In this document: piece after piece, positions 38,201 to 43,987 of the stretch | How the letters are laid out: every line of letters starts with the position of its first letter | Position numbering within the stretch: the first letter of the stretch is position 1 | NCBI RefSeq assembly: GCF_020423045.1 | Contig: NZ_CP081943.1 | Coordinates: forward strand, 3,100,001-3,164,000 | DNA from: Pseudomonas sp. MM213 | GTDB lineage: Bacteria > Pseudomonadota > Gammaproteobacteria > Pseudomonadales > Pseudomonadaceae | Reading direction: 5' to 3' | Length of the DNA: 64,000 nucleotides | Translations under genes and position numbers: made by a program | Notes under the pieces: model-generated | What the model was told of the DNA's origin: nothing | What the model saw: only the letters and a program-made list of their open reading frames with translations | The model's database searches: none

Positions 38201-38292
38201 TGTAGGAGCCAGGCTTACCGGCGAAGAACGATGACGCGGTCTAACAGATACATCGCGCCGCTCGGTTCGCGGGCAAGCCTCGCTCCTACAGG
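38201..38292. repeat. Mixed REP pair
   Basis: The left arm is of the GAGCCAGG class and the right arm of the GAGCGAGG class, so the arms pair imperfectly. It looks like two REP halves of different subfamilies. Confidence 0.82.
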
Positions 38293-38804: not shown

Positions 38805-38836
38805 ACCTTCACAAATCAGGACTTGACCATTGCAGC

Positions 38837-38858
38837 GGATGATAAGCATTATCATTTG
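38837..38858. promoter_or_regulatory. Fur box before the heme ECF sigma gene
   Basis: The palindrome TGATAA-GCA-TTATCA (38840-38854) with flanking GGA and TTTG resembles the Fur consensus, 27 bp upstream of the GTG start. Iron starvation should turn the sigma gene on. Confidence 0.7.
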
Positions 38859-38881
38859 ATCGAAATGGATCAGGTCCTCCC

Positions 38882-39400
38882 GTGAGTCAATCGCGCTTCA
38901 ATCACGTCTTCATCGCCCAGCGCGTCTCTCTGCTGCGCACGCTGGAGCGGATGGTCAACAATCACAGCACCGCCGAAGACCTCTTGCAGGAGACCTACCT
39001 GCGCGTGACCCGTGCGCTCAGCGAACGGGCCATCGACCACCTTGAACCCTTTGTTTTCCAGACCGCCCGCAACCTGGCGCTGGACCATTTGCGTGCGCGG
39101 CGCATTCAGTCACGGACGATGCTCGACGACGTGCCGATGGACGTGGTGGAAAGTATTGCCGCGCCGGCCAGCAGTGCCGAGGACGCCGCCCATGCCAAAC
39201 AATTGCTGGAGCGTTTGAACGTGAGCCTCAGTGAACTCAGCGCCCGTCAGCAGCAGATTTTCATTCTCAGCCGCTTGCACGGGCACAGCTATCTGGAGAT
39301 TTCCGAGACGCTCGGCGTGTCATTGAGCACGGTGCAAAAGGAGTTGAAGCTGATCATGGCTATCTGCATCGGTGTCGCCGAACGGTTAAACGGCGACTGA
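38882..39400 (+). CDS. hxuI: Heme-responsive ECF sigma factor (HxuI-like)
   Basis: The protein is 172 residues, starting with GTG. It has FecI-type sigma region 2 (NNHSTAEDLLQETYLRVTRAL) and region 4 (LSARQQQIFILSRLHGHSYLEISETLGVSLSTVQKELKLIM). It is followed by a FecR-type gene and a TonB receptor gene with a signalling domain, then heme oxygenase; the order matches hxuI-hxuR-hxuA of P. aeruginosa (PA1300-PA1302). A Fur box overlaps its likely promoter. I infer it drives hxuA and hemO through a shared element. The symbol is by synteny and family; the ligand being heme is supported by hemO. Confidence 0.87.
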   Translation: MSQSRFNHVFIAQRVSLLRTLERMVNNHSTAEDLLQETYLRVTRALSERAIDHLEPFVFQTARNLALDHLRARRIQSRTMLDDVPMDVVESIAAPASSAEDAAHAKQLLERLNVSLSELSARQQQIFILSRLHGHSYLEISETLGVSLSTVQKELKLIMAICIGVAERLNGD

Positions 39401-39481: not shown

Positions 39482-40447
39482 GTGACGGACACCCACCGCT
39501 CCCCTCCGCCCTCCCCGGCGCGGGACTCCGCAAGTGCGATGGACCAGGCCCTGGACTGGCTGATCGTGCTGGGCAGTCCGAGCGAAGAACAGTCTCGCCA
39601 GTTCCAGGCATGGCTGGACGCCGACCCTTTGCATGCGCAAGCGTTCGCCAAGGCCCAGGCTATCTGGGACGGCCCGCAAGTCGTGCAATGCGCGCAACAT
39701 CTGGCCGCGCAACCACCCAAAGTCACCGTGTTGTCGCGCCTGCGCCCGCACTGGAAACCGTTGGCCACTGCTGCCGTGTTGATCCTCGGCCTGTTCAGTT
39801 TCAGCAACCTGCCCCTGCGTCTCCAGGCCGATCACCTGACGGTGGTCGGTGAGCGTCAGCGCCTGCAACTGGAGGACGGTTCGAAAGTCCTGCTCAATAC
39901 CAATTCGGCGTTTTCCAGCACCATCAACGATCAGCAGCGCGTCGCCCGTCTTTATCAGGGCGAAGCGTTTTTCGAAGTGCCGGCCCATCGCGGCCAGCCG
40001 CTGGAAATCGACGCCGGACCGGTGAAGGCCAGCGTGCACGACACGGCATTTGCAGTGCGCTACCTCGATGGCGTGACGCAGGTTCAAGTGCAGCGTGGCG
40101 ATGTCGACTTGCGGGCGACCCGCGACGACGCACGGATTCGCCTGTCTGCCGGCGAAAGCATCCGCATCGGCCCCAACGGTTTCGACCGGCCGGCCAGGCT
40201 CGACGCCGCGACTGACCTGGCCTGGGTCCAGGGCCGACTGGTGTTCGAGAACTGCCCGATGAGCCAGGTGCTGGCGGAACTGCGTCGCTACTATCCAGGC
40301 TGGATCATCAACAACAACGAGCAATTGGCCGACGTCGCCGTGACCGGCAATTACCGTCTCGACCAGCCGCTGGACGTGGTCCGCTCGCTGGCGCACATCA
40401 CCTCGGCGCGGCTCCAGGAATATCCGGCGCTGGTGATCCTGAACTAA
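39482..40447 (+). CDS. hxuR: FecR-type anti-sigma/signal relay protein (HxuR-like)
   Basis: The protein is 321 residues from a GTG at 39482 after GAGGA. The cytoplasmic N-terminal anti-sigma part (about 15-75, with MDQALDWLIVLGSPSEEQSRQFQAWLDADPLHAQAFAKAQAIW) is followed by one membrane helix (about 93-112, PLATAAVLILGLFSF). The periplasmic FecR domain then has LEDGSKVLLNTNSAFS, GEAFFEVP and a C-terminal STN-like lobe (LVFENCPMSQVLAELRRY). It binds the receptor's signalling domain and passes the ligand signal to the sigma factor. Confidence 0.9.
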   Translation: MTDTHRSPPPSPARDSASAMDQALDWLIVLGSPSEEQSRQFQAWLDADPLHAQAFAKAQAIWDGPQVVQCAQHLAAQPPKVTVLSRLRPHWKPLATAAVLILGLFSFSNLPLRLQADHLTVVGERQRLQLEDGSKVLLNTNSAFSSTINDQQRVARLYQGEAFFEVPAHRGQPLEIDAGPVKASVHDTAFAVRYLDGVTQVQVQRGDVDLRATRDDARIRLSAGESIRIGPNGFDRPARLDAATDLAWVQGRLVFENCPMSQVLAELRRYYPGWIINNNEQLADVAVTGNYRLDQPLDVVRSLAHITSARLQEYPALVILN

Positions 40448-40464
40448 ATGAGAATTATTTTTAC
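40446..40464. promoter_or_regulatory. Fur-like box before hxuA
   Basis: AAATGAGAATTATTTTTAC resembles a Fur site (AATGATAATTATT-like) but the match is partial. It overlaps the left part of the proposed ECF promoter, so Fur bound here would block it. Confidence 0.45.
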
Positions 40465-40493
40465 TCGATAGCTGAAGCTCGTACGTCTCGTTA
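40458..40493 (+). promoter_or_regulatory. Proposed HxuI-dependent promoter of hxuA
   Basis: TTTTTACT-N18-CGTCTCGTTA, ending 76 bp before the ATG. The identical two blocks with identical spacing precede hemO. The CGTC core resembles the -10 of ECF (FecI-group) promoters. Confidence 0.6.
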
Positions 40494-40569
40494 TAGCCAA
40501 TGCAATTGATTCGCATCTTCATATGCCAATCAGCACCTATAAAGATTCGTGCGACTCGGAGCGCTATCG

Positions 40570-43161
40570 ATGTCCTCTCGCCTTACCCGCCACTCCTCTT
40601 CACCGTCCCGCGTGCTCTCGCTGTTGACCGCCGCCATCCTCATGGCTGGTAGCGCGCCGCTGATGGCCGCCACCGCCGCCGAGCAACCGACGCGCAACAT
40701 GGGCGATTACGCGTTTGCGATCCCGCAACAGTCGCTGGTCTCGGCACTCAATGCCTTTACCGCGGTGACGGGCTGGCAGGTCGGCTTGCCGGCAGAACTT
40801 GGGCAAGGCGTGGCCTCGCCGGGTGTGCGCGGGTCCTTGTCGCCGGAGAAAGCCCTGGATCGCCTGTTGGTGGGGACCAACCTGAGCTATCGCAAACTGG
40901 GCAACAACAACATCGTCCTGGAAAAGCGCCCGAGCAGCGGCGCGCTCAATCTGCAACAGGTGACCATCAGCGCCACCCGCCAGGAACAAACCGTGGAAAG
41001 CGTGCCGGGCACCGTCACCGTTCACACCCGCGAAGAGCTGGACCGCAACAACGTCAACACCATCAAGAACCTCGTGCGTTACGAACCGGGCGTTTCGGTC
41101 GGTGGTGCGGGCCAGCGCGGCGGGATCAGCGGCTACAACATCCGCGGCATCGACGGCGACCGGATCCTGACCCAGGTCGACGGCGTCGAAGTGCCGAACG
41201 ACTTCTTCAACGGCCCTTACGCCAAGACCCAGCGCAACTACGTCGACCCGGAGATCATCAAACGCGTCGAAATCCTCCGTGGGCCGGCCTCGGTGCTGTA
41301 CGGCAGCAACGCCATCGGCGGCGCGGTCAGTTATTTCACCCTCGACCCGGACGACATCATCAAACCCGGCAAAGACGTCGGCGCCCGCCTGAAAACCGGC
41401 TACAGCTCCGCCGACGAGAGCTGGTTGAAGTCCGCGACTGTGGCTGGCCGCGCCGATCAGTTCGATGGCTTGCTGCATTACAGCCAGCGCGACGGTCATG
41501 AAACCGAATCCTACGGCAACAACAACGGCACCGGCCTGGCGCGCACTGCGGCCAACCCGGAGGACGTGCGTACCTACAACGTATTGGCCAAGATCGGCTG
41601 GAACTACAACGAAGATTCGCGCCTGGGCCTGACGTATGAAAAGTACAAGGACGACCGCGACACCGATCAGAAAAGTGCCTACGGCGGTCCGTTCGACAAA
41701 GGCCAGCCGGCGATTCCGGCCAGCGTCCTGCCGGGCGGCATGTACCAGTGGCGCACCGGTAACGACACCGTCACCCGCGAGCGTTTCGGCCTGGAACACA
41801 GCTTCGCCCTCGACAGTCTGCTGGCAGACAACGTCAAGTGGAGCCTGAACCATCAGGTCGCCAAGACCGACCAGAGTACCGAAGAGTTCTACTACCCGAT
41901 CTCACGCAAAGTGCTGCGCACCCGCGAAACCCTTTATGAAGAAAAGCAGTGGGTGTTTGACGCGCAACTGGACAAGGCTTTCAGTCTTGCCGACACCGAG
42001 CACCTGCTGACCTACGGCACCACGATCAAGCAGCAGAAAGTCACCGGTTCGCGCAGCGGCAACGGCACCTGCCTCGCGGTCTTTGGCTCCTGCCGAACCC
42101 TCGGCGCCGTCAGCACCGCAGACGTGCTGAAAAAATCCAGCGACTTCCCCGATCCGACCGTCAACACCTACAGTTTGTTCGCCCAGGATCAGATCAGCTG
42201 GGACAAATGGACCTTCCTGCCGGGGCTGCGCTACGACTACACCGAGCTCAAGCCGCACATTACCCAGGAGTTCTTGAACACCGTGGCGGCCGATGGCCGC
42301 GGCACCGTCAGCAACGACTCCAAAACCTGGCATCGCGTGTCGCCGAAATTCGGCCTGACCTACGCCCTGACCGACCAGTACACCTGGTATGGCCAGTACG
42401 CCGAAGGTTTCCGCACACCGACCGCCAAGGCGTTGTACGGGCGCTTCGAGAACACCACCACCGGTTATCGCGTGGAGCCCAACCCGAACCTCGACCCGGA
42501 AACCAGCAAAGGTTTTGAAACCGGTCTGCGCGGTCAATTCGAATCGGGCTCCTTCGATGTGGCCGTGTTCTACAACAAGTACCGCGACTTCATCGAAGAG
42601 GATGCCATCTCCCCCGGTTACAACGAGCTGACCTTCCAGAGCGCCAACATCAAGCGCGCCACGATCAAGGGCGCAGAGGTCAAGGGACGTCTGAACCTCG
42701 ACGTCTTCGGCGCGCCACAAGGTCTGTACACCCAGGGCTCGGTGGCCTACGCCTACGGTCGCAACAATGACAACGGCGAACCGATCAACAGCGTCAACCC
42801 GCTGACCGGCGTGTTCGGCCTCGGTTACGACCAGGACAACTACGGTGGTTTGCTCAGCTGGACGCTGGTGAAAAAGAAGGATCGTGTCGACGACACCAAA
42901 TTCAAGTCGCCGGACGGCGTCAGCAGCCAGTTCAAATCGCCGGGCTTCGGCGTGCTGGACCTGACCGGTTTCTACAAAGTGACGGACGACGTGACCGTCA
43001 GCGCCGGGGTCTACAACCTGACCGACAAAAAGTACTGGCTGTGGGATGACGTGCGCGGTTACGACGGCGTCGGCGAGGCGTCGGTCCTCAGCCCGGCCAA
43101 CCTTGATCGCCTGACTCAGCCGGGTCGCAACTTCGCGGTCAATCTGGTCTGGGACATCTGA
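40570..43161 (+). CDS. hxuA: TonB-dependent heme receptor with signalling domain (HxuA-like)
   Basis: The protein is 863 residues from the ATG at 40570 (GGAG upstream). A long signal peptide ends near PLMAATAAEQ. An STN signalling domain follows (about 45-115, FAIPQQSLVSALNAFTAVTGWQVG), then a TonB box region (LQQVTISATRQEQ), plug (VPGTVTVHTREELDRNNVNTIKNLVRYEPGV; VEILRGPASVLYGSNAIGGAVSYFT) and a 22-strand barrel ending NFAVNLVWDI. The plug and barrel motifs (GYNIRGIDGDRILTQVDGVE) are those of hemoglobin/heme receptors. It imports heme and reports it to HxuR. Confidence 0.9.
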   Translation: MSSRLTRHSSSPSRVLSLLTAAILMAGSAPLMAATAAEQPTRNMGDYAFAIPQQSLVSALNAFTAVTGWQVGLPAELGQGVASPGVRGSLSPEKALDRLLVGTNLSYRKLGNNNIVLEKRPSSGALNLQQVTISATRQEQTVESVPGTVTVHTREELDRNNVNTIKNLVRYEPGVSVGGAGQRGGISGYNIRGIDGDRILTQVDGVEVPNDFFNGPYAKTQRNYVDPEIIKRVEILRGPASVLYGSNAIGGAVSYFTLDPDDIIKPGKDVGARLKTGYSSADESWLKSATVAGRADQFDGLLHYSQRDGHETESYGNNNGTGLARTAANPEDVRTYNVLAKIGWNYNEDSRLGLTYEKYKDDRDTDQKSAYGGPFDKGQPAIPASVLPGGMYQWRTGNDTVTRERFGLEHSFALDSLLADNVKWSLNHQVAKTDQSTEEFYYPISRKVLRTRETLYEEKQWVFDAQLDKAFSLADTEHLLTYGTTIKQQKVTGSRSGNGTCLAVFGSCRTLGAVSTADVLKKSSDFPDPTVNTYSLFAQDQISWDKWTFLPGLRYDYTELKPHITQEFLNTVAADGRGTVSNDSKTWHRVSPKFGLTYALTDQYTWYGQYAEGFRTPTAKALYGRFENTTTGYRVEPNPNLDPETSKGFETGLRGQFESGSFDVAVFYNKYRDFIEEDAISPGYNELTFQSANIKRATIKGAEVKGRLNLDVFGAPQGLYTQGSVAYAYGRNNDNGEPINSVNPLTGVFGLGYDQDNYGGLLSWTLVKKKDRVDDTKFKSPDGVSSQFKSPGFGVLDLTGFYKVTDDVTVSAGVYNLTDKKYWLWDDVRGYDGVGEASVLSPANLDRLTQPGRNFAVNLVWDI

Positions 43162-43170
43162 TCCTGCACG

Positions 43171-43215
43171 CTCACTGCGCGGCTTTTTATAGCGCCGCAC
43201 AGTGAGGTTTTTTTA
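43171..43215 (+). terminator. Terminator between hxuA and hemO
   Basis: CTCACTG-CGCGGC pairs with GCCGC-A-CAGTGAG and is followed by a seven-T run. The T-run also forms the left block of the proposed hemO promoter. Confidence 0.85.
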
Positions 43216-43245
43216 CTGTCAGGCGTCTTCTTGTTCGTCTCGTTA
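43210..43245 (+). promoter_or_regulatory. Proposed HxuI-dependent promoter of hemO
   Basis: TTTTTACT-N18-CGTCTCGTTA, same blocks and spacing as upstream of hxuA, ending 30 bp before the hemO ATG and immediately after a terminator, so hemO needs a promoter here. Confidence 0.6.
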
Positions 43246-43275: not shown

Positions 43276-43884
43276 ATGACTAACCAGGACACTGCTCAAC
43301 GCCCGGCTTTGCGCTCGCAACGCTTGAACCAGATCACCCATGAACCCCACACCAAACTCGATGCGCTGGTCAAAGCCCACGCGCCGTTCGAAACCCAGGC
43401 CAATTTCGCCCGTTTCGTGGTGGCGCAGTATCTGTTCCAGTCGGAGCTGGTGGCGCTGTACAACGATGCCGAACTGATCGCCATCGTTCCCGATCTGGCA
43501 GCGCGCTGCCGTGCCGAAGCGGCCAAGGCTGACCTGGCCGATCTGGACACCGAAGTGCCGGCGCCTGTCGCGGGCGCAGTGAACAACCCGAGCAAAGCCG
43601 AAGCGCTGGGTTGGTTGTTTGTGTCCGAAGGCTCGAAGCTCGGTGCAGCGTTCCTGATCAAACGGGCTGTCGGCCTGGGCCTGAGCGAGACCTTCGGCGC
43701 CCGTCACCTCGGCGAACCGGCCGGTGGCCGCGCCGAAGGCTGGAAAAGCTTCGTCAAGACGCTGGACGGTCTGGCACTCACCGAACAGGAAGAAGCCGAG
43801 CTGGATAAAGGCGCAATTAATGCGTTCAACCGCTTCACCGTGTTGCTGGAACACGCCTACGCCACCACTCCCGAACTCGCCTGA
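43276..43884 (+). CDS. hemO: Heme oxygenase (HemO/PigA type)
   Basis: The protein is 202 residues from the ATG at 43276 (AAGGA upstream). It opens heme to biliverdin and releases iron. It aligns well with P. aeruginosa PigA/HemO from memory: NLRSQRLN-type lead then EPH with the proximal His (His25), the NFARFVVAQYLFQSELVALY helix, EALGWLFVSEGSKLGAAFLIKRA with distal-helix glycines, and FGARHLGEPAGGRAEGWKSFV. It is separated from hxuA by a terminator but preceded by a copy of the same promoter element, so uptake and degradation are likely induced together. Confidence 0.94.
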   Translation: MTNQDTAQRPALRSQRLNQITHEPHTKLDALVKAHAPFETQANFARFVVAQYLFQSELVALYNDAELIAIVPDLAARCRAEAAKADLADLDTEVPAPVAGAVNNPSKAEALGWLFVSEGSKLGAAFLIKRAVGLGLSETFGARHLGEPAGGRAEGWKSFVKTLDGLALTEQEEAELDKGAINAFNRFTVLLEHAYATTPELA

Positions 43885-43896
43885 TAACCCCGCCCT

Positions 43897-43987
43897 TGTA
43901 GGAGCGAGGCTTGCCCGCGAAGAACGATAACGCGGTCTATCTGAAAAACCGCGGCGCATTCTTCGCGGGCAAGCCTCGCTCCTACAG
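43897..43987. repeat. REP inverted pair (GAGCGAGG class)
   Basis: TGTAGGAGCGAGGCTTGCCC and its complement, with the family spacer type GCGGTCT...ACCGC, between hemO and the YbaN gene. Confidence 0.9.

Follow-up and report, generated by a model that had tools for sequence, protein, structure and literature searches.

A heme-receptor locus of Pseudomonas sp. MM213 raises the question of whether the ECF sigma factor encoded at its start directs expression of the receptor gene or also of the heme oxygenase gene that follows it. In the window (the whole 64,000-nucleotide stretch of DNA analysed here), the order is sugar-metabolism genes (probably glk, edd and gap, as named by reading the open reading frames), methylglyoxal synthase, an ECF sigma factor, a FecR-type gene, the receptor, heme oxygenase and a DUF454 gene. 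The names hxuI, hxuR and hxuA are given by resemblance. The sigma factor gene (hxuI-like; 38882–39400, forward strand, as are the other genes described) encodes a FecI-type protein, for which Pfam found Sigma70_r2 and Sigma70_r4_2/r4 and did not list region 3, and TIGR02937 scored over its cut-off. As in cell-surface signalling systems, the adjoining hxuR-like gene (39482–40447) encodes a FecR-type anti-sigma factor/sensor with FecR, DUF4880 and FecR_C over cut-off (FecR domain, 63.6 bits versus a cut-off of 24), and the adjoining hxuA-like gene (40570–43161) encodes a TonB-dependent heme receptor (TIGR01786 and TIGR01785 over cut-off; STN, Plug and barrel domains) with an N-terminal STN signalling domain at residues 70–119. 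The heme oxygenase gene hemO (43276–43884; PF01126 over cut-off) is the sole PF01126 match in the whole genome; one match exceeds the TIGR01785 heme-receptor cut-off genome-wide, and a HemS-family profile search of the genome gave no match. REP-like sequences (TAGGAGC...GGCTTGCCCGCGAA) lie at 38203–38288, at 43899–43984 and at other places in the window (nine on the forward and eight on the reverse strand), and several form inverted pairs.

The same 36-bp element, TTTTTACT-N18-CGTCTCGTTA, stands on the forward strand before the receptor gene (40458–40493) and before hemO (43210–43245). As the original prediction had claimed, the two copies are exact, with 0 mismatches and a spacing of 18 in both, and their spacers differ, agreeing at just 6 of 18 positions. 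The element ends 76 bases before the receptor start codon and 30 bases before that of hemO. Judging from the match between the two sites and its conservation, both elements are very probably the −35/−10 promoters that the FecI-type ECF sigma factor of this locus (38882–39400) recognises, and transcription is predicted to start a few bases 3′ of CGTCT. The ∼20 bases 3′ of the receptor element (40494–40513; TAGCCAATGCAATTGATTCGC) are strongly conserved in relatives, unlike those 3′ of the hemO element, which show no such strong conservation. They are possibly a second operator; their Fur-like score is within that of shuffles.

Searching related genomes, a check proposed together with the element, showed that both blocks are kept before this pair of genes. 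Of 149 genomes of the genus, 122 had a heme oxygenase match; from these, 80 loci, one per genome, were sampled in order of decreasing identity as far as 54%. The window's own genome, other genomes at various ranks and matches below 50% were not included. Allowing up to three mismatches to the 18 letters, the receptor element was found at 72 of the 76 loci in which the receptor was located and the hemO element at 60 of 80, whereas 1 of 468 shuffled regions reached this level. Two of the receptor misses, L100 and L110 (8 mismatches), came from a wrongly extrapolated start, and the element is present in both. For column statistics, rows with a spacing of 18 and at most five mismatches (72 receptor, 68 hemO) were thinned to <85% identity. 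TTTTTAC was invariant in these rows (34/34 receptor and 59/59 hemO); CGTCT was invariant in the hemO rows and had three changes in the receptor rows, and much of the spacer varied freely. The core pattern used in searches was TTTTTAC[T/G]-N18-CGTCT (TTTTTACK-N18-CGTCT). Among named relatives (the best 80 of 402), the exact core preceded the receptor in 80/80; hemO is seen in 78 of them, with the exact core before it in 76 and near-copies in the remaining two. L183 and L211, considered as loci lacking the hemO element, were ruled out as such, since near-copies are present in their sequence.

Conservation extends to other genera of the family, where at most two mismatches were found in the receptor element at 23 of 24 sigma loci (counting L281, in which the receptor is cut short and the element was placed 3′ of the FecR gene) and in the hemO element at all 16 loci with hemO; here the hemO spacer is 17 nt in 15 of 16. 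In the class as a whole, sparsely sampled by 274 genomes of which few belong to the order, the sigma factor was found at E 1e-35 in the window's own genome only. One genome of another genus (G268) has two more distant sigma copies (L291 and L292; 55% and 48% identity) separated by ∼8 kb; with each of them, an element with one mismatch precedes a TonB receptor of 27% identity to the receptor described here. At eight loci (L175, L177, L181, L104, L106, L107, L109 and L113), hemO falls into several groups and has 54–57% identity to that of the window while the rest of the cluster is much closer, and the element is kept before each hemO, as though the enzyme had been replaced under an unchanged switch.

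The core also follows the sigma gene from genome to genome. Exact cores occur in 109 of the 149 genus genomes (two in 90, one in 12 and three in 7), giving 213 in total versus 36 for the reversed pattern; their positions are given among the matches listed, not for each pair. The sigma gene was detected (E 1e-40) in 112 of these genomes, of which 108 have both sigma gene and core and 4 the sigma gene only; one has the core only and 36 have neither (Fisher p 7e-29, kinship ignored). Each of the sigma-only genomes (G008, G013, G054 and G146) has element variants before the receptor, and the core-only case (G076) is a 4612-base contig that breaks off inside the FecR gene. In three genomes without the sigma gene at E 1e-40 (G113, G120 and G129, the last with a partial hemO), no element was found at hemO. 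The element also stays with hemO genes that lie elsewhere: in G009 and G085, hemO and its element are on another contig than the cluster, and the 4.6 kb upstream of hemO contain none of the cluster genes (in the G085 element, the first T is replaced by C and the spacer is 17 nt long); in G063, the element is kept before a hemO gene divergent from the cluster. In L157 (G068), a hemO remnant of which two ends only were matched (1514–1859) still has a 17-spaced element in front.

Individual loci depart from this pattern. L056, L064, L071 and L072, which are of one kind, have the cluster and receptor element intact and the hemO element absent; by reading, the gap before hemO in the first three is filled by a REP-like inverted repeat, so that hemO there may depend on read-through. 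Before hemO, L097 and L100–L102 have a 17-nt spacer or a broken T-run. L111 has a degenerate receptor element and no other. L110 has the receptor element and none before hemO; matches to FecR and to the STN part of the receptor are also lacking there. In L100 (G020) and L110 (G023), the FecR gene is absent or shrunk to a short match and the match to the receptor begins past its STN part, with the sigma gene and receptor element still present.

The junction between the receptor gene and hemO holds a further feature. A hairpin of −20.8 kcal/mol followed by a T-run (43208–43214) forms a putative receptor-gene terminator on the forward strand (43172–43214), and the T-run is also the −35 block of the hemO promoter. 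The terminator was folded directly, as the automatic scan with its loop limit of 8 did not list it; for 200 dinucleotide shuffles, the mean was −6.0 and the best value −20.6 kcal/mol. A hairpin of at most −15 kcal/mol lies just 5′ of the T-run at 48 of 72 hemO elements (≤5 mismatches) versus 16 of 216 shuffles. The contrast is weak at a threshold of −8 kcal/mol (55/72 versus 88/216), at which 1 of 74 receptor elements is preceded by a hairpin. In 41 aligned genus loci, chosen for having at most three mismatches, the stem has compensatory changes, with one pair being C-G in 16, T-A in 13 and G-C in 5. At seven loci (L077, L078, L087–L089, L093 and L096) no hairpin was found and TTTTTAC is still present, indicating that promoter function and termination both maintain the T-run. 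The proposal that the T-run of the receptor terminator doubles as the left block of the hemO element is thus borne out by the hairpin and its compensatory changes, with some relatives lacking the hairpin: within the genus, the terminator U-tract commonly, though not universally, provides the hemO −35.

These data bear on whether read-through from the receptor gene is the main control of hemO, with the second element of little weight. Such an arrangement would fit the four loci that have the cluster without a hemO element, and the transcript data for a locus of the same gene order in P. syringae B728a (Thakur et al. 2013, PMC3597554) do not, as reported in the accessible part of that article, separate the two promoters. 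However, a strong hairpin and T-run separate the two genes at most of the loci scored above, and hemO genes outside the cluster keep the element, so we regard read-through as very unlikely to be the main control. With its promoter built into the receptor terminator, hemO would have its own start and need not depend on read-through. A relay is also conceivable, albeit unlikely, in which polymerase, having terminated the receptor transcript at the U-tract, remains bound to DNA and restarts at the hemO promoter with the same sigma factor; hemO output would then track receptor transcription. PMC6978380 and PMC7957599 deal with the recycling of polymerase after intrinsic termination; the bearing of such recycling on this junction is speculation.

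Could the two blocks instead be the site of another regulator, Fur or a heme-responsive activator, rather than a sigma-factor promoter? A Fur-like box does lie before the sigma gene (38835–38859, no strand assigned), matching a Fur consensus at 15 of 19 positions at 38835–38853, with overlapping matches to 38859. In 500 shuffles the 95% level was 12 and the best score 14; the box reached at least 15/19 in 80/80 named relatives (the best 80 of 402), and a weak sigma-70-type promoter match (38823–38852) overlaps it. Fur binding here is predicted, and Fur would most likely control the sigma gene. This box and the strong conservation just 3′ of the receptor element are what another regulator would account for. 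Against it, the best Fur-like match before hemO is 9/19 here and 9 to 11 in 78 relatives, none of which counts as a box, and the best before the receptor (12/19) equals the 95% level of its own shuffles; Fur was rejected as the common factor on these grounds. Furthermore, two blocks at a fixed spacing of 17–18 with a free spacer suit −35/−10 contacts, and genomes with the core are nearly always those with the sigma gene. Another regulator at these blocks is therefore highly improbable, and without a Fur-like box before hemO, iron control of this gene would be indirect.

Within MM213, the element is confined to the two sites. Up to three mismatches to TTTTTACT-N18-CGTCTCGTTA gave two sites in the window and none beyond (shuffle mean 0.03), and 0 of 100 shuffles of the window contained two copies. 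In the whole genome, TTTACT-N18-CGTCTCGTTA with up to two mismatches had three matches, two exact and one with two mismatches, and its reversed-pattern control had two. The exact core occurs in the 6.75-Mb genome at these two sites only, even though the genome has 14 FecR-domain matches; it is thus not a generic promoter of all such systems. With one mismatch allowed, the core had 11 matches and the reversed control 13. The nine further one-mismatch matches would fit chance, or a generic FecI-type promoter before many receptors, but they do not exceed the control, exact cores are limited to two sites and recur at the same two genes in relatives, and the probability of this explanation is negligible. 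A third target in the genome was likewise rejected, because one-mismatch matches do not exceed the reversed control and three exact cores occur in just 7 of 149 genus genomes.

Taking both elements as promoters of the adjoining sigma factor, we infer for MM213 a scheme that includes recognition by the sigma factor, the start sites, Fur control and a heme signal. Low iron would relieve the sigma and anti-sigma genes of Fur repression; signalling from the receptor, via its STN domain and FecR, would release the sigma factor; and RNA polymerase with the freed sigma factor would start the receptor gene and hemO. As no third strong site was seen, the regulon would essentially comprise heme uptake and heme breakdown. 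With one heme oxygenase, one TIGR01785 match and no HemS match, this two-gene regulon may govern most of the recognisable heme-iron route. The analysis thus provides a precise, family-wide promoter definition for a heme-locus FecI-type sigma factor of Pseudomonas, with two targets that span heme uptake and breakdown, and a conserved natural example in which a terminator U-tract doubles as a −35 block.

The closest known system is Ecf7 of B728a (Psyr_1107) and PSPTO_1286 of DC3000, in which the order sigma, FecR, receptor, hemO (Psyr_1107–1104, as described) is the same as here. We liken the systems by gene order; the accessible part of PMC3597554 gives no promoter element. In that study, deletion of ecf7 in low iron decreased hemO 220-fold and the receptor 166-fold, and low iron increased hemO 427-fold and the receptor 154-fold. 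Expression of hemO also fell 6.7-fold without ecf5, 7.9-fold without ecf6 and 3-fold without gacS. ChIP-seq in DC3000 (Markel et al. 2013, as cited in PMC3597554) placed heme oxygenase and the receptor in the PSPTO_1286 regulon. The conclusion that the adjoining sigma factor uses one ECF-type promoter at both genes is supported by conservation, co-occurrence, relocation and the deletion data from the same-order locus. The original prediction further held that the oxygenase is made in full only when heme is sensed outside. This clause is not supported: the 427-fold rise of B728a hemO occurred by iron limitation alone, in medium without added iron, and was ecf7-dependent; neither heme addition nor the word hemin was found in the accessible part of PMC3597554. 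The shared ECF-type promoter and the overlap of terminator and −35 block stand.

In P. fluorescens Pf-5, PFL_4625 and PFL_4628, the sigma factor and hemO, both increased in iron limitation (PMC3377617), and Thakur et al. (PMC3597554) describe them as orthologues of ecf7 and hemO; neither a deletion of the sigma gene nor an analysis of the promoters was seen in the accessible part of PMC3377617. HxuIRA of P. aeruginosa likewise combines an ECF sigma factor, a FecR-type anti-sigma factor and a TonB heme receptor. Overexpression of HxuI raised hxuA 66-fold (PMC8768829), and the MEME motif proposed there differs, as judged by eye, from the element described here; PA0672 and 'heme oxygenase' do not occur in the main text of that article, as far as it was accessible. 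HemI-HemR-HemAD of Stenotrophomonas maltophilia is similarly FecIRA-like, serves hemin use and has a predicted Fur box, but the reported target of HemI is an operon for an inner-membrane transporter (hemU) (PMC12772443), and heme oxygenase has 0 occurrences in the accessible main text. No earlier statement of the element was found in the literature searched, which hardly reached subscription papers (Markel et al. 2013 among them). Sigma control of both genes is already published for the same-order locus of B728a; what is new here is the element itself, its limitation to two sites, its spread and its fusion with the terminator.
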